Assembly: GCA_955652715.1 (NCBI GenBank)
Contig: CATPBS010000006.1
Span: forward strand, 1 to 11,032
DNA: 11,032 nucleotides
DNA from: an uncultured Candidatus Udaeobacter sp.
GTDB taxonomy: Bacteria; Verrucomicrobiota; Verrucomicrobiia; Chthoniobacterales; UBA10450
Reading direction: 5' to 3'
This document shows, piece by piece, positions 1-8,755 of this stretch. The position numbers and the translations under genes are program-made. Below the pieces are notes generated by a model. That model saw only the letters and a program-made list of their open reading frames with translations. It did no database searches and was not told the DNA's origin. Within the stretch, counting starts at the first letter, position 1, and each line of letters starts with the position of its first letter.

Positions 1-184
1 ATTCTACCACCTGTCCAACAAACTTGTCGCTCTGGAATGGGAAGCAGATATGCATGACATCGCATTGGGACACCGATCCAGGCAGATTGATGTCGACGCC
101 GAAGGTTTGATGCTTGCTCTTAACGATCTCCATCAATGCTTTGCCGACCTCTCCGAGACCGACGACGATCACAATTTGCTTCAT
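1..184 (-). CDS. NAD-binding sugar dehydrogenase-like protein, N-terminal part (runs off the left edge)
   Basis: The first 61 codons of a minus-strand gene starting at the ATG at 184-182. The N-terminus is a Rossmann fold: a hydrophobic strand followed by GLGEVG at residues 9-14, and an acidic residue (Asp31, in FGVDIN) at the end of the second strand, which usually marks preference for NAD over NADP. DVMHICFPF at residues 46-54 comes early, so the nucleotide-binding region looks more compact than in classic UDP-GlcNAc 6-dehydrogenases (WbpA/WecC), which share this general architecture. It follows three nucleotide-sugar genes, so a role in sugar-nucleotide oxidation is plausible, but the catalytic part is outside the window. 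No Shine-Dalgarno is visible upstream; an 8-bp tandem repeat array lies 24 bases upstream of the start. Exact substrate unknown. Confidence 0.7.
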   Translation of the reverse strand, partial: MKQIVIVVGLGEVGKALMEIVKSKHQTFGVDINLPGSVSQCDVMHICFPFQSDKFVGQVVE

Positions 185-208
185 GGCTCGGGCAGAAGAC
201 GGTGGTTC

Positions 209-244
209 CGTTGAATCGTTAAACCGTTAAATCGTTAAAGCGTT
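209..244. repeat. 8-bp tandem repeat array, consensus CGTTAAAN
   Basis: Four consecutive octamers plus a half unit fill most of the 72-base space between the aminotransferase stop (257) and the next start (184). Units begin at 209, 217, 225 and 233, with CGTT at 241-244. The first unit has G instead of A at its fifth base, and the last base of each unit varies (T, C, T, G). A two-unit relic in the opposite orientation occurs at 4713-4728. This looks like a member of a short intergenic repeat family rather than a terminator: it lacks dyad symmetry and a T-tract. Confidence 0.85.
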
Positions 245-256
245 GCGCTTTCACCT

Positions 257-1405
257 TTAACCGTGGCGCTCTGCCAGTTGACCTTCGATCCCTAAGGGGT
301 TTTCAGATTTTTGAAAAAAGCTGTCGATATGTTCGACCACGAACTCAATCATTTCGTCTGTTATCTCCGGATAGATGGGCAGCGACAGAATGCATGATTG
401 GTTGGCGTAAGCCACTGGGAAATCGGCCGGCTCGTGGCCGAGATAGGCGTAAGCAGGATAAAACGGTAACGCTTTTGGATAATTCAAGACCGTTGCAACG
501 CCGGCATCGGTAAGATGCTTTCTTAAGGAGTCGCGCTTTTCGGTGCGGATAACGTAGAGGTGATAAACGTGCTCGCAGCCCGCAGCGACTTCCGGCTTGC
601 CGATATCGCCGACGCCTTCCAGGAAGTGATCGTACTTTGCCGCCACGCGTTGCCGCGCTTTCGTCCAGGCGGAGAGATGAGGCAATTTGACGTTGAGGAT
701 CGCGCCTTGGAATCCATCCATGCGGCTGTTGATCCCTTCCATGACGTGCTCGCCTTTGCCGCCGTGACGCGCGAAGGTTGTCATCCAATCCGCCAGACGG
801 TCGTCATTGGTCACAGCGCATCCGGCATCCCCATACGCACCCAGGTTTTTGCCTGGATAAAAGGAAAAGGTCGCAACGTTGCCAAAGGTTCCGACAAACT
901 GGCCTTTGTACTTGGCCAAATGCGCCTGCGCGCAATCTTCAATTACCCAAAGTTTATGCTTCCGGGCGATCGCCATAATTGGGTCCATGTCGGCCGGTTG
1001 CCCGTAAAGATGGACCGGAATGATTCCGACCGTGGCAGGTCTGATCTTTCTTTCGATATCGGCGGGATCAATCGTGAAGGTTTCCTCATCCGTGTCGCAG
1101 AACACGACCCGGCCGCCGGCCTGCGTTATCGTCTCGGATGTTGAGATCCAGGAATGGGCCGACGTGATGACTTCATCGCCCGGTTTCACGCCCAAGGCGC
1201 GCATCGCAATGTAAAGCGCGTCCGTGCCGTTTGCGCACGAGACGCAACGTTTCACGCCAAGCGCTCGCGCCCATGCCTCCTCGAAAGCGTCCACGTACGG
1301 CCCGCGAATGAAGGCAGACTGGGCGATCACGTCGGCAATGGCTTTGTCAATCTCTTGTTTGATCGTCAGATATTGCGCGTGCAGATCAACGAAGGGGATT
1401 TTCAT
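257..1405 (-). CDS. DegT/DnrJ/EryC1/StrS-family PLP-dependent sugar aminotransferase (WbpE/WlbC-like)
   Basis: A 382-residue fold-type I aminotransferase that would transfer an amino group, usually from glutamate, to a keto group of a nucleotide sugar in the cytoplasm. Visible hallmarks are the PLP-phosphate loop NGTDAL (59-64), the ring-stacking/aspartate segment IEDCAQAH (155-162, Asp157 and Gln160), and the Schiff-base lysine Lys186 in FSFYPGKNLGAYGDAG. Length fits the family (about 360-390). Together with the Gfo/Idh oxidoreductase and the acyltransferase nearby, it matches the WbpB-WbpE-WbpD route to UDP-2,3-diacetamido-2,3-dideoxyglucuronate, where the oxidoreductase supplies the 3-keto sugar. 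Substrate assignment is inference; other DegT enzymes act on the 4-keto or other positions. Only six bases separate its ATG from a heptamer array, and the leader is pyrimidine-rich with no Shine-Dalgarno. Confidence 0.93.
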   Translation of the reverse strand: MKIPFVDLHAQYLTIKQEIDKAIADVIAQSAFIRGPYVDAFEEAWARALGVKRCVSCANGTDALYIAMRALGVKPGDEVITSAHSWISTSETITQAGGRVVFCDTDEETFTIDPADIERKIRPATVGIIPVHLYGQPADMDPIMAIARKHKLWVIEDCAQAHLAKYKGQFVGTFGNVATFSFYPGKNLGAYGDAGCAVTNDDRLADWMTTFARHGGKGEHVMEGINSRMDGFQGAILNVKLPHLSAWTKARQRVAAKYDHFLEGVGDIGKPEVAAGCEHVYHLYVIRTEKRDSLRKHLTDAGVATVLNYPKALPFYPAYAYLGHEPADFPVAYANQSCILSLPIYPEITDEMIEFVVEHIDSFFQKSENPLGIEGQLAERHG

Positions 1406-1411
1406 GGCGCA

Positions 1412-1481
1412 GACGGAGGACGGATGGCAGATGGCCGAGGACAGAGGTCAGATGTTGGAGGATGGAGGACGGAAGAGCGAT
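1412..1481. repeat. Degenerate 7-bp tandem repeat array downstream of the four-helix-bundle gene
   Basis: Ten consecutive heptamers in perfect 7-base register, consensus on the plus strand G-A/G-C/T-G/A-G-A-G/T (for example GACGGAG at 1412, GACGGAT at 1419, GATGGAG at 1461). The last unit is weakest and ends at the first base of the four-helix-bundle stop codon (1481-1483). The other edge is six bases from the aminotransferase start (1403-1405). The purine-rich strand is the plus strand, opposite to the array at 1886-1920. Heptameric STRR sequences of heterocystous cyanobacteria are a structural analogue; relationship is not implied. Confidence 0.85.
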
Positions 1482-1867
1482 TAACCGGACTGTTTACAGA
1501 ACTTTTCAGGCTTGGCCATCATAGTTCCAAGCATTTGGCCAATCCTTGAGCATTTTTCTAACAAGCCCCTCCACGTCTCTTCGGAGATGTAGTTGCAAGC
1601 CGCGGCTGTGTCTAACCAATGCTGAGATTCGGCCTGTTCGCCATCTGCATCAGTCAGCTTGCTGACAAAGTGGGCGAGATAACGTCGCTTTTGCCAAGCC
1701 TCGGATATATTGGCTCCGATTGATCTTGACGCTCTCCGGACTTGGTCGGTCAAGGCATAACGCTCTTCCGCTGGGAATCGTTTGGAGGCTTCGAAGATTT
1801 CTTGTTGAACTTCAAATGCCAGCTTGTAGACCCGCAGTTCCTTGAAGCTCGATATCTTCTCACTCAT
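1481..1867 (-). CDS. Four-helix bundle protein of the S23 / 23S rRNA intervening-sequence protein family
   Basis: A 128-residue all-helical protein with the family signature in order: FKELRVYKLAFEV (8-20) in helix 1, YALTDQVRRASRSIGANISEAW (37-58) with the conserved Q-x-R-R-A and S-I-x-x-N-I-x-E-A pattern, and FVSKLTDADGEQAE (67-80) in helix 3. This family (Pfam 23S_rRNA_IVP, TIGR02436) was first seen inside rRNA intervening sequences; a relative, Avd, assists diversity-generating retroelements. No reverse transcriptase or rRNA is present here, so neither role is supported. It interrupts an otherwise sugar-nucleotide operon, has no evident link to polysaccharide synthesis, and is flanked on both sides by 7-bp arrays that take up the rest of the intercistronic space. 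The leader before the ATG is A-rich with no well-spaced Shine-Dalgarno. Confidence 0.9.
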   Translation of the reverse strand: MSEKISSFKELRVYKLAFEVQQEIFEASKRFPAEERYALTDQVRRASRSIGANISEAWQKRRYLAHFVSKLTDADGEQAESQHWLDTAAACNYISEETWRGLLEKCSRIGQMLGTMMAKPEKFCKQSG

Positions 1868-1885
1868 TTCTTTTGTCTTTGCTTC

Positions 1886-1920
1886 TCCGCCATCAGTCGT
1901 CGGTCATCAGTCGTCAGGCT
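1886..1920. repeat. 7-bp tandem repeat array upstream of the four-helix-bundle gene
   Basis: Five heptamers in register: TCCGCCA at 1886, TCAGTCG at 1893, TCGGTCA at 1900, TCAGTCG at 1907 and TCAGGCT at 1914. The array ends six bases before the acetyltransferase stop codon (1927-1929). Its purine-rich strand is the minus strand, so relative to 1412-1481 the two arrays lie in inverted orientation around the four-helix-bundle gene. Units of the two arrays resemble each other in spacing and purine pattern but are not identical. Confidence 0.8.
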
Positions 1921-1926
1921 GCTGCT

Positions 1927-2388
1927 CTAGAGACGGCGCAGCAGCCGGGCTGGATTGCCCGCGTAAATGCCGGAAACGGTAATATCCTTGGTAACAACTG
2001 CGCCGGCTCCGATGACCACTTGATCACAGATCGTGACCGGGAGGATCGTGGCATTTGTTCCGATACTCACACGATTGCCAAGTTTGGTTGGCCGCCAGAG
2101 CTGCGGTTTTCCGGCAGGGCCACCGGTGACGAACGGATCATTAATAAACATCGCGCCATGAGAAAGGAAGCAGTCGTCCCCAATCGTGACCAGATCGCAG
2201 ATGAACGAGTGGGATTGAATCCGGCACCGCTTCCCGATGGTTGCTCCCTTTTGTATCTCAACGAAAGGTCCGATGAAAGTCTCATCGCCGATTTCACAAC
2301 CATATAAGTTTGTCGGTTCTATGACGGTGACATTTGCACCGAACTTCACGTTGACGAACCCGACCGTGCGGCGCCTAGCTGGATTCAT
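1927..2388 (-). CDS. Left-handed beta-helix (hexapeptide) N-acetyltransferase, WbpD/WlbB-like
   Basis: A 153-residue acyltransferase made almost entirely of hexapeptide repeats: IGDETFIGPFVEIQKGATIG (33-52), then IGDDCFLSHGAMFINDPF and VSIGTNATILPVTICDQVVIGAGAVV, closing with a typical GNPARLLRRL tail. Such proteins form trimers with acetyl-CoA bound between prisms. Neighbours suggest it N-acetylates the amino group installed by the DegT aminotransferase on a UDP-sugar (UDP-3-amino-GlcNAcA to UDP-2,3-diacetamido sugar), as WbpD/WlbB do; this is inference. Its ATG overlaps the oxidoreductase TGA by four bases (ATGA), indicating translational coupling and the same operon. It is somewhat shorter than typical WbpD (about 190 residues). 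A general sugar O- or N-acetyltransferase is the alternative. Confidence 0.9.
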   Translation of the reverse strand: MNPARRRTVGFVNVKFGANVTVIEPTNLYGCEIGDETFIGPFVEIQKGATIGKRCRIQSHSFICDLVTIGDDCFLSHGAMFINDPFVTGGPAGKPQLWRPTKLGNRVSIGTNATILPVTICDQVVIGAGAVVTKDITVSGIYAGNPARLLRRL

Positions 2389-3422
2389 ACCGCAGAACTC
2401 TGACGGATGGCCTGGCCGTTCAGCGGTCGCGCGCGCTCGAGGATCGAAACGACAGTTCGCGCGTGGTTGAGCCCAGTGAGTGGTTCGCGTGAATTACGGA
2501 TGCAGTCGGCGAAGTGTTCCGCCTCGACGCGGAGCGGTTCCGCAAACTTGACCTCCGGTATCAGAATATCGCCGCTCCGATAGTTGAACTGCGAAACCCG
2601 CGGACTATCGAAATCCATGTTTTCACCAAGTATCGCCTTCCGGTCAATTCCCTTGTCGTAAATCGTGATCTTGTCTTCGGCTATGTCGTCATAAACGACC
2701 ATCTTGCGCGAGCCGACGACAATCATTTTTCGCACCTTTTGAGGATCCAGCCAACTGACGTGAATGTTAGCGATAACTTTATTCGGGTATTCAAGACTCA
2801 GGAAGACGACATCGTCGATTCCATCCTGCATATAAGCCATGCCTTGTCTGGAAACCGAGACCGGCTCCGGGTTCCCAAGCCAGTATTGGATAATGCTGAT
2901 ATCATGGGGCGCGAAATTCCAGAGGGCATCGATGTCGGCACGGATACGGCCCAAGTTAAGGCGCTGACTGTAGATGTAGCGGATCTCTCCCAATTCGCCC
3001 GCGTCGATCAGTTGCTTCACGTAACGCACGGCAGCGTTGTAAATGAAAGTGTGTCCCGTCATGACGACAAGATTTCGCTCGGCAGCGCGTTTCGAGAGTT
3101 CATCGACCTCGGCAACTTTCGTCGCGAGCGGCTTCTCTACGAAAACGTGTTTGCCGGCGTCGAGGACTTGATTAGCGAGTGAGAAGTGACTTGCGGCGGG
3201 TGTCGCAATCACCACGCCATCAACGCTGGGATCGTCGAGAACAGTCTGATGCGTCTCGATCGCGCGGCTGAGAGGGAAATTTGACTCCACAAAGCCGCGG
3301 CGTTCCGCGCTCGAATCCACCACGTACTTGACCGTGCACCCAGGCAAGGCCGAGAAGTTGCGCAGGAGATTCGGGCCCCAATAGCCACATCCGAATTGGG
3401 CAAGGACTAAATTTGGTAGCAT
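2385..3422 (-). CDS. Gfo/Idh/MocA-family NAD-dependent oxidoreductase (WbpB/WlbA-like)
   Basis: A 345-residue two-domain dehydrogenase. Residues 5-125 form a Rossmann fold with GCGYWG (11-16); VFVEKPLA (93-100) holds the family EKP motif with Lys97; APHDISI (171-177) carries the histidine-aspartate pair expected in the active site. The C-terminal half is the usual alpha/beta substrate domain. WbpB/WlbA oxidise the 3-hydroxyl of UDP-GlcNAcA to a ketone for a partner PLP aminotransferase. The downstream acetyltransferase (overlapping by 4 bases) and the aminotransferase fit that pathway. There is no Shine-Dalgarno: the leader reads CCTCCTTTCTGTC before ATG, and an 8-bp arm containing the start codon is repeated in inverted form upstream. 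Alternative: another sugar-nucleotide or inositol-type dehydrogenase. Confidence 0.93.
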   Translation of the reverse strand: MLPNLVLAQFGCGYWGPNLLRNFSALPGCTVKYVVDSSAERRGFVESNFPLSRAIETHQTVLDDPSVDGVVIATPAASHFSLANQVLDAGKHVFVEKPLATKVAEVDELSKRAAERNLVVMTGHTFIYNAAVRYVKQLIDAGELGEIRYIYSQRLNLGRIRADIDALWNFAPHDISIIQYWLGNPEPVSVSRQGMAYMQDGIDDVVFLSLEYPNKVIANIHVSWLDPQKVRKMIVVGSRKMVVYDDIAEDKITIYDKGIDRKAILGENMDFDSPRVSQFNYRSGDILIPEVKFAEPLRVEAEHFADCIRNSREPLTGLNHARTVVSILERARPLNGQAIRQSSAV

Positions 3423-3675: not shown

Positions 3676-4611
3676 CTAAGGGTTGGCCTCGCTATAGAAT
3701 TGTCTGCGCGCTTGGCTAAGGTCCTTTGTTTCTCCAACATGAAGCAATCTTGGTTGTACGGATTGCGAGCCTCCTGTCAAGACCTTAATTGGCCGTACAG
3801 CTTTATTACCAAGAATGTCCGTTACATTAAAACGTGCTTCTTTTCCGCTTTCCAAACCGGCTTCAGGGGCCTCGACAAAGACCCAGCCTCTAACCGTATG
3901 ACGAGGTTCAAGGTCTTTGTTTGCAATCATATAATCAAATGTGTCTTGTTCTATATTAGATCGACGTGTTTGCTTCATATCATTGGTACGACCACGATTA
4001 TAAACATGGCCGCTGTGCGCGTCGATAGTAACAAGTCTCACCCACTCTTGTTTGCCATTCAGTACCTCGATCGAATAAGAGTCGATCATTATAGGTGCGT
4101 CACCTAAATTAGTGAATCGAATGTATAATATACCATTAATTGGCGATGCAATTATTGATCCTTTTTTGTCACCGTGTATCATCCAAAAATTTTCATCCAT
4201 AGATTTGCGGTGTAGCCATCCAGCTTCCACAGCGACTGTAAAGTCCAGGTTAGGTGGTGCAGTTTTAGAGGTTGATGGTGTTGAGATTTCGGACGGCTTA
4301 GGTGCCGGAGCGATTTGTCTAATCAGCGCAGGCCATACAATCCAGCAGAGAGTGGTTATTCCGGCGCCGAACCCAAGCCACATGCCTCGTAGGTCCTTCA
4401 TGAAGTAATAGCCAATCGACGGAGCCAGTATTAATAGAGCTATGCTAACGACTATGTTTTGCCCCCAAGAGTGAGTAAAAAGATCATGAGAAACGCTTTT
4501 GAAAATATTCCCCCAATTGCAGGATGGGTTAATGGGATTGCTGTTGGGCATCGGAATCCTTATCGGCCTCGTTCTGGGCATCCTCGTCCACAAATAAATG
4601 TTACCCTTCAT
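3676..4611 (-). CDS. Hypothetical two-helix membrane protein with soluble C-terminal domain
   Basis: Up to 311 residues. Two probable transmembrane helices (about 52-69 and 76-97, rich in I, L, W, G) are followed by a Pro/Ser/Thr linker (100-121) and a soluble, probably beta-rich domain (122-311) with segments such as LYIRFTNLGDAPIMIDSYSI and RGWVFVEAPE. I do not recognise the family. The start is uncertain: the first 30 residues are Arg/Pro-rich, and Met21 (ATG at 4551-4549) has AAGGA five bases upstream, making it a better start than 4611. The gene is AT-rich relative to its neighbours: hand counts give 32% GC for 3901-3960 and for 4081-4140, versus 65% for 5341-5400 in the next gene. This suggests acquisition by transfer. 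It is followed three bases later by the 51-residue gene. Confidence 0.7.
   Translation of the reverse strand: MKGNIYLWTRMPRTRPIRIPMPNSNPINPSCNWGNIFKSVSHDLFTHSWGQNIVVSIALLILAPSIGYYFMKDLRGMWLGFGAGITTLCWIVWPALIRQIAPAPKPSEISTPSTSKTAPPNLDFTVAVEAGWLHRKSMDENFWMIHGDKKGSIIASPINGILYIRFTNLGDAPIMIDSYSIEVLNGKQEWVRLVTIDAHSGHVYNRGRTNDMKQTRRSNIEQDTFDYMIANKDLEPRHTVRGWVFVEAPEAGLESGKEARFNVTDILGNKAVRPIKVLTGGSQSVQPRLLHVGETKDLSQARRQFYSEANP
4532..4597 (+). CDS. Candidate 21-residue hydrophobic peptide antisense to the membrane protein's 5' end
   Basis: ATG at 4532 with AGGA seven bases upstream, TAA at 4595-4597. It encodes one glycine-zipper-like helix (starts MGLLLGIGI, ends GILVHK). Fifteen of the twenty codons after the ATG end in G or C, unlike the AT-rich coding of the overlapping minus-strand gene, whose reading of the same bases is an unconvincing Arg/Pro-rich stretch. 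If the minus-strand gene starts downstream of here, the two would be divergent neighbours. It may equally be chance or a remnant of a longer protein's membrane anchor; the frame is open only back to a TGA at 4487-4489. Confidence 0.25.
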   Translation: MGLLLGIGILIGLVLGILVHK

Positions 4612-4712: not shown

Positions 4713-4728
4713 CTTTAACGCTTTAGGC
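4713..4728. repeat. Two-unit relic of the octamer repeat, inverted relative to 209-244
   Basis: CTTTAACG (4713-4720) and CTTTAGGC (4721-4728) are the reverse complement of the CGTTAAAG-type unit. The minus strand from 4720 reads CGTTAAAGCATTGCG, differing by one base from CGTTAAAGCGTTGCG at 233-247. The relic overlaps the stop codon (4723-4725) of the 550-residue deacetylase-like gene, so it also encodes that protein's last residue. Confidence 0.5.
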
Positions 4729-6375
4729 AGCGATCAGAACCTGGTCTGATTTGTCGATTGTGAAGTCCTCGAATGCTGCGCTCCGCGAGTGAGGGAGGTT
4801 GTCCTTTGAAGCGCGGCCGTTATATACCCTCACTGTTAATGGCGGAAGATCAGCGGCGGTTCGCTCAGTAGCTAACTGCACCCGGATGCTTCCATCCTGT
4901 GTGACTCTGGCGAACGATGTCGCGCGCCGCTTGCGAAACCACGAGACGCTTTGCGCCGCTGTGGCAAACCAGGGTGTCCTCGCGCGCAAGTCGTGGAGCA
5001 GAGTCACATACGGGTCGCCCCATAACCTTTCGGGCCCAAGACTCCGGTCATGCCAGTTAATGGTGAGGACACCGCCGAATCTTGTCGCGTTCTCGATCAA
5101 CGGCAGCATTGCAGCGCCAGCCTGCTCGTCGGACAAGTTCATGTACGACGGATAAAACAGCGCCGTGTCCATGATGTGCAATGGGAGTTCCAGTAAATGA
5201 TCGACGTTGGGATGTTTGAAGACTTGATTAGTTCCTGCGCGATATCCGATCGTTTCGTTGTAGCCAAACGTTGAGTCATAGGAGAAGCCGGCTTTCTCGA
5301 TCGTCAATGGCGCCTGCGAATTGAAGTAAAGCCAGTGCATCCGAACGCCGATCTCGACCGTTCCCGTGATCTCCTGGATGCGCTCGCGCTCATCACGACC
5401 CTTTGCGCTATCGCGCCACGCGTCGATGCCGTGGACAGCGATTTCGCTATTGGCGGAAAGCAGCTTCTTTAAGTCATCCGCAATATCGGCCGAAGCGTAG
5501 CGCGAGGCGCGGTTTGCTCTTGTTCGACCGTGAGAATCAACGCCCGCGTCCCCCTTTGTCGGAATAACAAAGAAGGTCGAGGCAAGATCCCTTTCCAGCT
5601 TCAGGTAGCGATCGAGCTGGTTCCAGAAGTCTTTCGCAAGTCCAGCGAACACCAGGGGCAGGGAAAGCGCTGCCTTCCAATTGACAGCTACCTGCCGAAG
5701 AGACCTCCTTCCTCGACAAAAGTTGATGACTGATCCAACCAGCGCTCGGTAAAGAAAACCAAACATCGTGCGGTCACACTTATGATAGCGCACGCGCGGG
5801 TGATCGACGTCATGAGTGAGGCACACTATAAAGCGATGTCCTGCGGGGACAGGAAGTATCTCGACGAAAGCCACTCCCTGGCTAACGATCAGCTCGCGGA
5901 GCAGGGAGATGTGGAGTTCCAGTGTGGGTATGCTAGCGAATTCTGCTGGTTGGCCCTTTGTTAAGAGGTGGTGGACTTCTTCAAACAAATCGAAGCCTAG
6001 ACGCACCACCGCTTGGGCGCCAGATACCATCGAGACAGCAGCGGCCGAGTTTGTTCCCTCGTGACAGAGGACCTTGTTGCCCTGGCCTTCGAAGAGAAGG
6101 CAGCTTCCATAAATTGGCATTCGTTCACCGTGAAAAGAAACGAAATCGTGTCCGTGAACGGACCACGTCTTTATTCCTCGGCATTGCTCGAATGCTTGCT
6201 GCTGCGAGCCATAAAGCAAAAGCAGCCTGGCGCTGTTCTCTGGAACCAGGCTGTTTGAGCAGAGTAGAACATCGTACCGGGTTCCCGGGCGGCAGAACTC
6301 CCAGGGCGTCTTAAACAACTCAAAGAACTCGACAATAGTGGAATGTTTAGTCCCATTGACAACAACACCGATCAT
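4723..6375 (-). CDS. Polysaccharide deacetylase-like (NodB/CE4-type fold) protein, 550 residues
   Basis: An N-terminal domain of about 175 residues, which I cannot name, precedes a TIM-barrel-like carbohydrate-esterase region. Visible motifs: LTHDVDHP (186-193), corresponding to the metal-binding aspartate motif of CE4 enzymes; EIAVHGIDAW (311-320) with His315; RMHWLYF (345-351); YDSTFGYNETIGYRAG (366-381); and TINWHDRSLG (438-447). The usual H-x-x-x-H is not present: the residue four after His315 is alanine, so the metal site is unusual or the activity altered. No signal peptide is evident, suggesting a cytoplasmic or peripheral role. Start ATG at 6375; only a weak GGA is near. Other members of this type occur in exopolysaccharide clusters; removal of acetyl groups from the glycan or its precursor is inferred from family only. 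Confidence 0.8.
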   Translation of the reverse strand: MIGVVVNGTKHSTIVEFFELFKTPWEFCRPGTRYDVLLCSNSLVPENSARLLLLYGSQQQAFEQCRGIKTWSVHGHDFVSFHGERMPIYGSCLLFEGQGNKVLCHEGTNSAAAVSMVSGAQAVVRLGFDLFEEVHHLLTKGQPAEFASIPTLELHISLLRELIVSQGVAFVEILPVPAGHRFIVCLTHDVDHPRVRYHKCDRTMFGFLYRALVGSVINFCRGRRSLRQVAVNWKAALSLPLVFAGLAKDFWNQLDRYLKLERDLASTFFVIPTKGDAGVDSHGRTRANRASRYASADIADDLKKLLSANSEIAVHGIDAWRDSAKGRDERERIQEITGTVEIGVRMHWLYFNSQAPLTIEKAGFSYDSTFGYNETIGYRAGTNQVFKHPNVDHLLELPLHIMDTALFYPSYMNLSDEQAGAAMLPLIENATRFGGVLTINWHDRSLGPERLWGDPYVTLLHDLRARTPWFATAAQSVSWFRKRRATSFARVTQDGSIRVQLATERTAADLPPLTVRVYNGRASKDNLPHSRSAAFEDFTIDKSDQVLIAA

Positions 6376-6550: not shown

Positions 6551-8755
6551 CTAAAGAAGTTTGCCAATAGAATTCAGCAAGGTGAGCCGCTCGCGGCTCC
6601 ATGTATGCGAAAGGTAAACTGCCTGACCGCGCTTCACCGTTTCGGCCACTTCAACCGGATGAGAATAGGCGAATTCAATTTTTCGCGCGAGGTCGTCCGG
6701 ATTCCCGAGCTCGAAAAAGATCAGGTCATTGTCGCCGAAGTAGTCCTGAATGCCCTTTGTTTTGGGGGCAATCACCGGTTTCGCGAGTGCCAGGTATTCG
6801 AAGATGCGCGTGGGCGTATTGATCTCAGTAAAGATGTTGCGGTGGTTGGGGATAATCCCGAGGTCGCAATCCTTGATTGCCTCGACGATCTCTTTGAGAT
6901 TGCGAACGCCGAGGTAATCGACATTTCTGTCGAGTCCCCGTTGCTGGGCCCATTCCATCACTTTCTCGAAGAAGTCTGTTCGCTTACCGCAAACCCTCAG
7001 CCGAACAGATGGAATGTTTTTCCTCACCTTTTCCAGGGATTCCAAGGCCAGGTCGAAACCGTTCCGGCGAACTAACGAGCCGTGATAAAGAATCACAAAA
7101 GGCTTAGACCCATTGCCGTTTTTTACATGCACGCGGCAAACATCTCCGGACTGGAAGCGGAAGACCTCGTCATCAGGCGAATTGATTACGACTTTGATCT
7201 TATCCTGCTGACAACTGCGCGAAGAGTAGATCTTCTTGCATGCGAGATTCACGGTCAGCACGAGATCCGCGAAGTGGATACTCCACTTCTCCAGTCGCTT
7301 CAACACGAGCACGCTGAAGCTGTCCTCCGACAGCTTGAAGATCGTCTGCATCAGCTCGGGCATGGGATCATGCAAGTCCAAAATGACCTTTGCGCCGAGG
7401 AATTTCGGGATGATCGCACCGAAAACGAGGACGTCCGGCATGTTATGCACATGGACGAGATCGTACCGGCGAGTAAGTGATCTCGAGGCGAGGTAGAAAA
7501 ATGAGGTTAAGACAAACGCGGCATACTGGCCAATGTACCCGAGCTTGCCGCCACGATGGCGCTTCAACCGGACACGTGTGACGTTGATACGGCCGTAAGT
7601 CTCACGTGCCGGCTCACCATCGCCATCACGCAGGCAGATGAGGTCAATGTTAGCGCCCTGGGCTGCTAATGCCTCGGCCGCTCTTCTGGGCCGAGGATCC
7701 GCAGGATAGTGCGAGAAGAGCAGGACTGCGACGCGTCTGCCGCGCAGCCGGCGAATTTTCGGGGAGGCGAGATCGTCACATTTGCGGACGCTCGCTCTAG
7801 AGGAACGAATTTGGATGAAGTGTCCCGCTACTTCCTGCGGGAGAGCATGCCAGTATTCGCCTGCATACTTGGTTTTGACGTAAGTGAGGAACTCGCGGTA
7901 TAACGCAGCGGGATACTCCTTTGCCGTCTGCGGCGAACCGCCGAAAGACATGTAATCTGGGTGCGTATCGAGAAGGACCATCCCTCCATGCTCTGCGATC
8001 CAATCAAGCTTTTGCATCCAGATCTCCGGAGTGGTTTCGCGCAACAACAGGAACAGGGTTGAATCCTGCGGCAGAGTGTACGGAAGTTCGACGTAGCCGG
8101 GTTGGGCGCTAGCGGAGCGATTGGTGATTTGTGATTCGTGATTCGTACCCGGTTGAGGAACCCAGAAGGGAAAGATCGTGTGACGGCCCTCGGGCTGAGG
8201 CTCGAATGGATCCGTATCGAATGTCGATGCATCGTATGCAATCTTCAACTCGTGCAACCAGTCCAGCTTGTGCAACATGAACGCCGATCTAAATCCTACC
8301 GCTCCCCAGTCAGCGAGGTAGCGGTTAATGCTAACCGCTTTCCGCCTGAACTCCCTTTCGGATTGATAGAGCCGCCCGTCGTGTCGAAGATCGTGGATCC
8401 CTACCTCAAAGCCATTTTGCGCCAGTTCCTCTCTTAGTTCACGAGGATCCCGGTAGTCCCCTTCGGGAACAAAGTTGAATGAGGAGCGAAACCCGAACTC
8501 CAGGTCGAGCTGCATCAGCTCCCGGCACTTCCGCAAACCAACTGCACTTTCCACATCGTGCGTCAGCACAAGAGCGAATTTCTTGCCGTCGGGCCAGCCC
8601 GGCCAGTCTTCAGGCAGCTGTTCCGAGCCTGGCATGATCGGCCACACATTCGTGGCGCGCTCACGAGCACGCGCCGCGATGCGGCGCCGCACCCTCGTTC
8701 GGATGGGCCGCGGGATGAGCGGCTTTAGCCCGTAATAAATTCTATTGCGTAACAC
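6551..8755 (-). CDS. Fusion of polysaccharide deacetylase-like domain and GT4-like glycosyltransferase
   Basis: 734 residues starting at a GTG (8755-8753); I see no convincing Shine-Dalgarno. The first ~310 residues are a CE4-like domain: LTHDVES (64-70, Asp67), FNFVPEGDY (93-101), GIHDLRHDG (119-127) with the H-x-x-x-H pair His121/His125, YDASTFDTDPFEPQ (174-187), and LLDTHPDYM (261-269). Residues ~340-734 are a GT-B glycosyltransferase: VAVLLFSHYPADPRPRRAAEAL (342-363), DLVHVHNMPD (432-441), LDLHDPMPEL (459-468), LYHGSLVRRNG (556-566) and the donor-site segment TPTRIFEYLALAKPVIAP (647-664). The first glutamate of the classic E-x7-E is not at the usual spacing. Likely role: sugar addition from a nucleotide donor on the inner membrane surface, plus editing of acetyl groups on the same glycan. 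Residues 204-213 are encoded by a heptamer array, apparently an in-frame insertion between conserved blocks. Confidence 0.9.
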   Translation of the reverse strand: MLRNRIYYGLKPLIPRPIRTRVRRRIAARARERATNVWPIMPGSEQLPEDWPGWPDGKKFALVLTHDVESAVGLRKCRELMQLDLEFGFRSSFNFVPEGDYRDPRELREELAQNGFEVGIHDLRHDGRLYQSEREFRRKAVSINRYLADWGAVGFRSAFMLHKLDWLHELKIAYDASTFDTDPFEPQPEGRHTIFPFWVPQPGTNHESQITNRSASAQPGYVELPYTLPQDSTLFLLLRETTPEIWMQKLDWIAEHGGMVLLDTHPDYMSFGGSPQTAKEYPAALYREFLTYVKTKYAGEYWHALPQEVAGHFIQIRSSRASVRKCDDLASPKIRRLRGRRVAVLLFSHYPADPRPRRAAEALAAQGANIDLICLRDGDGEPARETYGRINVTRVRLKRHRGGKLGYIGQYAAFVLTSFFYLASRSLTRRYDLVHVHNMPDVLVFGAIIPKFLGAKVILDLHDPMPELMQTIFKLSEDSFSVLVLKRLEKWSIHFADLVLTVNLACKKIYSSRSCQQDKIKVVINSPDDEVFRFQSGDVCRVHVKNGNGSKPFVILYHGSLVRRNGFDLALESLEKVRKNIPSVRLRVCGKRTDFFEKVMEWAQQRGLDRNVDYLGVRNLKEIVEAIKDCDLGIIPNHRNIFTEINTPTRIFEYLALAKPVIAPKTKGIQDYFGDNDLIFFELGNPDDLARKIEFAYSHPVEVAETVKRGQAVYLSHTWSRERLTLLNSIGKLL
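8119..8146. repeat. 7-bp tandem array inside the deacetylase-GT4 coding region
   Basis: Four heptamers of the form GATTNGT in register (8119, 8126, 8133 and 8140; third and fourth identical). They encode residues 204-213 (TNHESQITNR) of the minus-strand fusion protein, in a loop between the conserved FPFWVPQ and GYVELPYTLPQ blocks. Twenty-eight bases is not a multiple of three, so flanking bases must have been gained or lost to keep the frame. Confidence 0.85.

Follow-up and report, generated by a model that had tools for sequence, protein, structure and literature searches.

An IVP gene between inverted heptamer arrays in a Candidatus Udaeobacter genome: a probable copy of a small, widespread mobile element

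In an uncultured Candidatus Udaeobacter sp., a gene for a four-helix-bundle protein of the IVP (S23) family lies between two sugar-pathway genes and is bordered on both sides by tandem arrays of 7-bp units. An earlier note on this DNA had proposed that the gene and its arrays form a mobile-like cassette, which raises the question of whether the block moves as a unit and what its arrays are. We analyzed the window, i.e., the whole stretch of 11,032 nucleotides (contig C6 of a 1.98-Mb assembly that is 69% complete), and compared the block with sites in the same genus, in cyanobacterial plasmids, and in genomes of many phyla. In our judgment, the block is probably a copy of a small mobile element that is widespread and consists of an IVP gene between inverted tandem-array ends (Table 1).

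TABLE 1 Features of the inserted block and its flanks in the window
Feature	Position	Strand	Basis
Inserted block as a whole, probable mobile element with array, IVP gene, and inverted array	1406..1926	-	G048 comparison
Left period-7 array, ~9 units, consensus GACGGAG, downstream of IVP gene	1412..1476	+	Shuffles, Tandem Repeats Finder
Left terminal inverted-repeat arm, 28 nt	1412..1439	+	Best inverted local alignment, 21/28 identical
IVP/S23 four-helix-bundle gene, 128 aa	1481..1867	-	PF05635, 3e-30
Right terminal inverted-repeat arm, 28 nt, upstream of IVP gene	1885..1912	-	Inverted local alignment
Right period-7 array, ~3.5 units	1893..1917	+	9/5000 shuffles
DegT/DnrJ/EryC1 aminotransferase gene, flanking, host DNA	257..1405	-	PF01041, 6.7e-105
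Hexapeptide acetyltransferase gene, flanking, host DNA	1927..2388	-	PF00132, 7.6e-20

The central open reading frame (ORF) belongs to the 23S_rRNA_IVP family by its PF05635 score of 105 bits, against a cut-off of 33.8, and it also touches bAvd (PF22296) at 5.6e-9, below the cut-off of that profile. The left array scored 20.5, a value equalled by none of 5000 simple shuffles, and the right array, which is short and weaker, scored 8.0; Tandem Repeats Finder reported the left array and not the right one. The placement of the gene between two heptamer arrays was thus confirmed. Their distance from the neighboring genes, given earlier as six bases on each side, is indeed 6 bases on the left, from the aminotransferase start, and about 6 to 9 bases on the right, to the acetyltransferase end, depending on where the last unit is cut. 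The arrays also face opposite ways, as had been claimed: the best inverted match between the two sides spans 28 nt (4 × 7) with a score of 14, which was reached in 8 of 1000 shuffles, versus a score of 6 in the same orientation. The pairing of the arms is real but degenerate in the window copy, and it is clean in many relatives. Pfam matched nothing in the element except IVP/bAvd, and no DDE, HUH, tyrosine recombinase, or serine recombinase domain was found there.

The next gene beyond the acetyltransferase gene encodes a Gfo/Idh/MocA protein (Pfam), and two ORFs of the sugar gene cluster, at 3676-4611 (311 aa) and 4723-6375 (550 aa), had zero Pfam matches at E 0.001. Other repeats in the window are an octamer array (CGTTAAAC/CGTTAAAT) at 208-246, beside the aminotransferase end, to which matching stretches are scattered at dozens of places in the genus, and four GATTCGT heptamers at 8119-8146 within a deacetylase/glycosyltransferase fusion ORF (6551-8755).

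We searched positions 1-3422 of the window against 35 genomes of the genus, its own genome included. Both flanks of the junction were found in eight other genomes, seven of which (G048, G015, G017, G043, G016, G018, and contig C224 of G023) lack the gene and have 14 to 83 nt between the aligned flanks; we inspected six of these seven junctions base by base. In G048, the closest relative, the flanks aligned on both sides (896/1084 and 426/461 identical), and window positions ~1414 to ~1906 remained unaligned. Because the flanks are 83 to 92% identical, the ends of the block are uncertain by several bases. Occupied and empty states therefore both exist at this exact acetyltransferase-aminotransferase junction, the alignment by which the earlier note had proposed to judge mobility. 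A conserved gene order, which the note had named as an argument against mobility, was not seen for the insert, since seven of the eight genomes lack the gene. The window element shares terminal inverted repeats and the existence of occupied and empty sites with insertion sequences.

The eighth genome, G045, carries the same insert with both arrays kept and 318 nt of the gene missing. Its gene remnant is 66/69 identical to the window, closer than its flanks (868/1148 and 363/458), and thus the occupied segment looks to have been exchanged more recently than the neighboring genes. Short period-7 arrays stand without the gene at the junctions of G048 (5/2000 shuffles) and G017 (4/2000), and the alignment of G043 enters the left array as far as 1442, its own array not being significant (137/2000). 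No significant array was present there in G015 (1506/2000), G016 (400/2000), or G018 (1902/2000). From the arrays in G048 and G017 and the G043 alignment, it follows that arrays may outlive, or sometimes precede, the IVP gene. In some of the gene-free genomes, the gene may have been lost.

To examine another site in the genus, we searched the 35 genomes with the IVP element of locus L026 (genome G003). Sorted from their junctions, the 30 loci comprised 3 occupied (G003, G014, and G021), 18 gene-free, 4 with a different insert, and 5 incomplete ones. The gene-free loci have 5 to 154 nt between the flanks, and 16 of the 18 keep nothing of the gene; L193 keeps 53 nt of the IVP gene end, and L202 aligns 9 nt into the gene. 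A period-7 array was significant in none of these 18 loci (fewest shuffles, 47/500). At the loci with a different insert, a PDDEXK_3/GxxExxY gene stands between inverted CGCAGATTT-type repeats; a profile search confirmed this gene in G007, G013, and G023 and not in G001.

A protein search yielded 30 plasmid records with an IVP relative, and we examined six cyanobacterial ones. In all six, inverted heptamer arrays flank the IVP gene on both sides, the left array being long in L174, and the neighbors are working gene sets: cas6/cas4, two ribonucleotide reductase genes, and a TrbI/VirB10 gene. Three hypothetical Nostoc genes, here called A, B, and C, overlap by 1 base or lie 2 to 3 nt apart in L299, L302, L304, and L306. 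A 417-bp IVP element sits between A and B in pNsp_a of strain ATCC 53789 and in pC052_D of strain C052, and another IVP element (506 bp, AAAAGGG heptamers) sits between B and C in pNsp_c of ATCC 53789. Against insert-free plasmids, the flanks of the inserts are 303/336 to 294/296 identical (90 to 99%), and the A/B gap without the insert holds no array. Since significant period-7 arrays are missing from this gap and from the gene-free loci of the L026 site, they arrive with the gene. Two further flank comparisons, L176 with L306 and L305 with L299, placed the gap elsewhere and were left out. In three comparisons of IVP inserts, 0, 1, and 3 bases at the ends were ambiguous as to target duplication. 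Furthermore, in the cyanobiont N6 of Peltigera, the IVP gene of the A/B gap is split by a 182-bp element with heptamer arms. The proposal of a mobile cassette is thus largely supported by occupied and gene-free states at the window junction, at the L026 site, and in the Nostoc plasmids.

Several of the plasmid loci deserve mention in themselves. Within a type I-D CRISPR locus of Anabaena sp. 90, an IVP gene with long 14-bp arrays separates cas6 from cas4 (L174, 1968-2336), and a Dolichospermum plasmid (L298) with flanks 98% identical has no IVP gene between cas6 and cas4, as judged from annotation and from six frames by eye. A consulted excerpt of an earlier survey already lists IVP genes in cas loci (PMC3936711). 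In a Nostoc edaphicum plasmid, an IVP element lies in opposite orientation between the ribonucleotide reductase beta and alpha genes (L178, 1995-2363). Nested heptamer-ended inserts occupy one gap between two hypothetical genes in Nostoc plasmids (L176, 1216-1478; L302, 1030-1360).

The Nostocales element of 182 to 184 bp that splits the IVP gene carries no gene of its own, its longest stop-free stretch being 60 codons, and it matched 98 places in 43 plasmid records, 28 of which hold a place covering at least 80% of it. In Calothrix brevissima, a 184-bp copy splits a plasmid rarA gene; two uninterrupted genes (1698/1800 and 1697/1800 identical) indicate a clean insertion with zero target duplication. 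The sequence WTAA follows on the right in all 11 readable right ends of 12 loci (GATAA in 8, GTTAA in 2, and ATTAA in 1), the left flanks of the copies differ, and in the rarA pair ATAA is present in the uninterrupted gene too. Short, gene-less, multicopy, with shared ends and clean insertion, the element has the marks of a MITE. Over 33 nt, its left arm shows no difference from the left arm of an IVP element of Trichormus variabilis, and the best interpretation is therefore that it is a non-autonomous relative of such an element. The earlier note had pictured a minimal non-autonomous element in which the repeats and the helical protein go together; the latter part stood, whereas IVP elements look gene-bearing, and the gene-less relative was found in cyanobacteria.

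We further asked how general the association of gene and arrays is. PF05635 was found in 32 of 39 genomes (own included), with up to 13 matches each. In 20 stretches of these genomes, the 26 kb lying no farther than 500 bp from an IVP gene contain 12 period-7 arrays, compared with 5 in the other 338 kb. From named genomes of many phyla we then collected 80 IVP loci (the best 80 among at least 583), and around these 51 period-7 arrays lay in the 74 kb within 300 bp versus 82 in 1.11 Mb elsewhere. Other periods from 4 to 13 gave 0 to 14 arrays each near the gene, period 8 being the one with 14. Among these best 80 loci, arrays stood on both sides in 38, on one side in 11, and on neither in 31, including both archaeal (Methanophagales) loci; at random positions of the same loci, both-sided arrays occurred in 12 of 2951 cases. 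A few of the 31 array-negative loci show period-8 repeats by eye, and period-8 arms were seen by eye in L096, L113, L123, L137, and L139. In a separate locus count, 42 loci represented 38 distinct places. At the level of whole genomes, array density did not clearly separate IVP-bearing from IVP-free genomes (4 arrays in 540 kb of three IVP-bearing genomes versus 2 in 660 kb of three without an IVP match), and several inverted array pairs without IVP, 4 to 2400 bp apart and with mixed contents, were present in genome contigs.

The two arrays of a locus are related to each other by inversion. The consensus heptamers of the 38 array pairs match at 6 to 7 of 7 positions when inverted in 27 cases and directly in 3, and 72 of 1406 cross-locus pairs have an inverted match. 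In a test free of any assumed period, in which the upstream sequence was aligned with the inverted downstream sequence in 78 loci (two were dropped for short flanks), 41 loci exceeded the 99th percentile of cross-locus pairs, a level exceeded by 7 of 800 such pairs. The arms of these 41 loci have a median length of 37 nt and lie a median of 22 nt from the start codon and 3 nt from the stop. As judged from their sequence, the ends of the element are terminal inverted repeats made of tandem arrays, often of about four heptamers (28 nt). In the 37 of the 80 loci that have a strong array, the upstream heptamer on the coding strand is G-rich (mean, 2.4 G and 0.7 C), with cyclic AGT in 20 and cyclic ACT in 5; protein similarity does not predict the heptamer in these loci (Mantel r, 0.071; 982/5000 permutations). 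Since the arms agree with each other and not with the protein, what is recognized is more likely their pairing and spacing than their sequence.

The PDDEXK_3/GxxExxY family was compared with the IVP family under one null, the 99.5th percentile of simply shuffled flanks, with PIN genes as a control. Inverted arms above this level were found in 29/38 IVP, 27/30 PDDEXK_3, and 1/28 PIN loci. This null replaced, for all three families, an earlier one of cross-locus pairs, by which 18/38 IVP loci and none of the PDDEXK_3 or PIN loci stood above, the 99th percentile of cross pairs being very high in the latter two, which made that null uninformative for them. By eye, the PDDEXK_3 arms are often about three units of 9 to 10 bp, and the array test at period 9 was positive on both sides in 2/30 and on one side in 9/30. 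At period 7, the corresponding counts were 10/38 and 20/38 for IVP and 0/29 and 1/29 for PIN. Two unrelated small gene families thus share one architecture, apparently each with its own period. The enrichment of 7-bp arrays around S23-family genes, which the earlier note had expected if repeats and protein belong together, thus holds against far sequence, random positions, and the PIN control. As to the PDDEXK_3/GxxExxY loci themselves (L183, L198, L203, L207, and L209-L238), some copies are partial or have stops, and in other species such an insert occupies the intergenic gap that holds the IVP element at L026.

Structures of IVP/S23 proteins have been solved since 2006, and their function is, to our knowledge, not known. 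An AlphaFold model of the L020 protein (11 sequences) has four helices with a pLDDT of 92.6, and Foldseek related it to Xcc0516 (2gsc, TMt 0.97), BT_0352 (2rld, 0.86), and, at E 0.006 to 0.02, the Avd protein of the Bordetella phage diversity-generating retroelement (4dwl, 0.89 at E 0.006; 8ub7, 0.84). Xcc0516 forms a homopentamer ring according to the consulted part of PMC4990558. Pfam found no catalytic domain in the IVP element, and thus the mobility enzyme may be something else.

How the element might move can be sketched. The IVP element inserts as one piece, and the insertions that we read lie in the spaces separating protein genes. IVP may bind the paired arrays, either as a DNA hairpin or as an RNA stem of the transcript, and IVP rings could bring in or help a strand-transfer or copying enzyme. 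The lack of target duplication together with the fixed WTAA, both seen in one cyanobacterial gene-less family and not in the window's element, would speak for a single-strand or copying mechanism rather than for a DDE transposase, and the likeness to Avd makes an RNA-based copying route conceivable. In the transcript, the arms might close a stem around the IVP message that RNase III could cut; such a cut, as in the 23S rRNA intervening sequence, would make insertion beside working genes tolerable. Comparison between sites showed insertion as a block, mutually inverted arms, and a gene-less relative with shared ends, and it showed zero target duplication for the gene-less relative only.

Other explanations have to be weighed against this reading. 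That the element is real but passive, with ends moved in trans by an unrelated enzyme, such as an HUH transposase of the IS200/IS605 type or a reverse transcriptase resident in the host, and with IVP as a passenger or accessory, is quite possible, though we would not give it an even chance. The match of IVP to IVP/bAvd only, its predicted all-helical fold, the spread of the gene-less relative, the lack of covariation between heptamer and protein, and the zero duplication with a WTAA flank, which resembles IS200/IS605 target use, all fit a passenger. However, one protein family accompanies the element across many phyla, and hosts would need a compatible enzyme everywhere; besides, several IVP polar residues are nearly invariant, although some of this conservation was built in by a search pattern that overlapped the region.

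Whether the arrays were there first, as ordinary intergenic heptamer repeats beside which a resident IVP gene with a preference for repeat-rich gaps inserted, is a question that G048 and G017 raise by their short arrays without the gene, and heptamer repeats are common in the intergenic DNA of several bacteria in the consulted parts of PMC4692102 and PMC4679880. We regard this as unlikely, since pre-existing repeats are not expected as inverted copies at both ends, and neither the 18 gene-free loci of the L026 site nor the Nostoc A/B gap holds a significant period-7 array. Still less credible is the idea that regulation or termination of transcription explains the arrays, which would be conserved together with a gene that relatives lost rather than gained: G045 did lose gene material while keeping both arrays, and L193 retains a gene end, but the arrays pair best across the gene, the window site is gene-free in seven congeners, the gap at L026 takes more than one kind of insert, and an IVP gene has itself received an insert. 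Chance or composition, with short arrays everywhere, could appeal to the short right array of the window; it is refuted by the excess of period 7 over every other period near the gene and by the rarity of the pattern at random positions (12/2951) and in the PIN family (1/28).

We thus return to the reading of the block as one copy of a mobile IVP element. A wider proposal, for and against which we see about equal grounds, is that such elements form a hitherto unrecognized, widespread class of minimal transposable elements with inverted short-period array ends and a single gene other than a known transposase, in which period and pairing are read. It covers IVP rings with period 7 (sometimes 8) and GxxExxY PD-(D/E)XK proteins, often with period 9 to 10. 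Within this proposal, both arms change together and the protein does not track their sequence, and the machinery would therefore read period and pairing, not sequence. If true, the class would explain the origin of solitary bacterial heptamer repeats and of 23S rRNA intervening sequences. IVP/S23 proteins and heptamer repeats would be tied together, the protein as a mobile-element gene and the repeats as its ends or remains, adding a mobile-element class without a recognized transposase that is found in many phyla. Annotators would be warned that a gene labeled "S23 ribosomal protein" within an operon can be an insertion. To earlier ideas on such sequences our comparison adds that the pattern is general outside rRNA, that the ends are arrays, that sites with and without the insert exist, and that a relative lacks the gene.

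Among known systems, REPtrons consist of a RAYT (HUH/Y1 transposase) gene flanked by inverted REP sequences, which are local palindromes. The IVP element likewise has a single small gene between inverted short repeats, plus dispersed gene-free repeats, but its protein is a helical bundle in place of the HUH/Y1 transposase, which Pfam did not find, and its repeats are tandem arrays. IS200/IS605 elements make no target duplication and insert beside a short fixed target, and the gene-less element resembles them in its zero duplication and fixed flank, whereas TnpA and TnpB are absent from the IVP element. The diversity-generating retroelement protein Avd (4dwl, 8ub7) has the same fold, with a weak profile match of the window IVP; unlike in those retroelements, no reverse transcriptase was detected among the 8 window ORFs (Pfam, E 0.001). 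Three 23S words had no exact match in the loci up to L314.

Heptanucleotide tandem repeats (TAACTGA, GGGAATC, and GGGGAYT) were described as mostly intergenic in cyanobacteria and other bacteria, among them Beggiatoaceae, Bacteroidetes, and Xanthomonas, and their origin and mechanism of spread were given as not known (PMC4679880, PMC4692102; consulted in part). They resemble the window arrays in their 7-bp units and mostly intergenic position, but the consulted parts treat them as regulatory or G-quadruplex sequences and do not report inverted pairing around an IVP gene; one of the two speculates that a repeat-binding protein could be the mobile element. Words beginning with "S23" or "four helix" do not occur in the main texts of these papers, and the consulted parts of the open-licence PMC literature do not link IVP genes outside rRNA to heptamer arrays. 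The published repeats may be remains of such elements.

The closest likeness is to the intervening sequences of 23S rRNA, which share with the window element the protein family, a gene between terminal inverted repeats, 28-nt arms, and heptamers. They sit in helix 45 of 23S rRNA, whereas the window copy lies outside the 23S rRNA gene, between protein genes of a sugar pathway. According to the consulted part of PMC4990558, which does not tie heptamers to IVP genes outside rRNA, the Coxiella intervening sequence has an S23p ORF whose start codon is preceded by three GACAGAT heptamers and one GACAGAA, a 28-bp terminal stem, and excision by RNase III, and intervening sequences were earlier thought to be remnants of transposition or mobile elements with an ORF for mobility. 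By this analogy, the Coxiella intervening sequence looks like the same element in another place, and 23S rRNA would be one of its landing sites.
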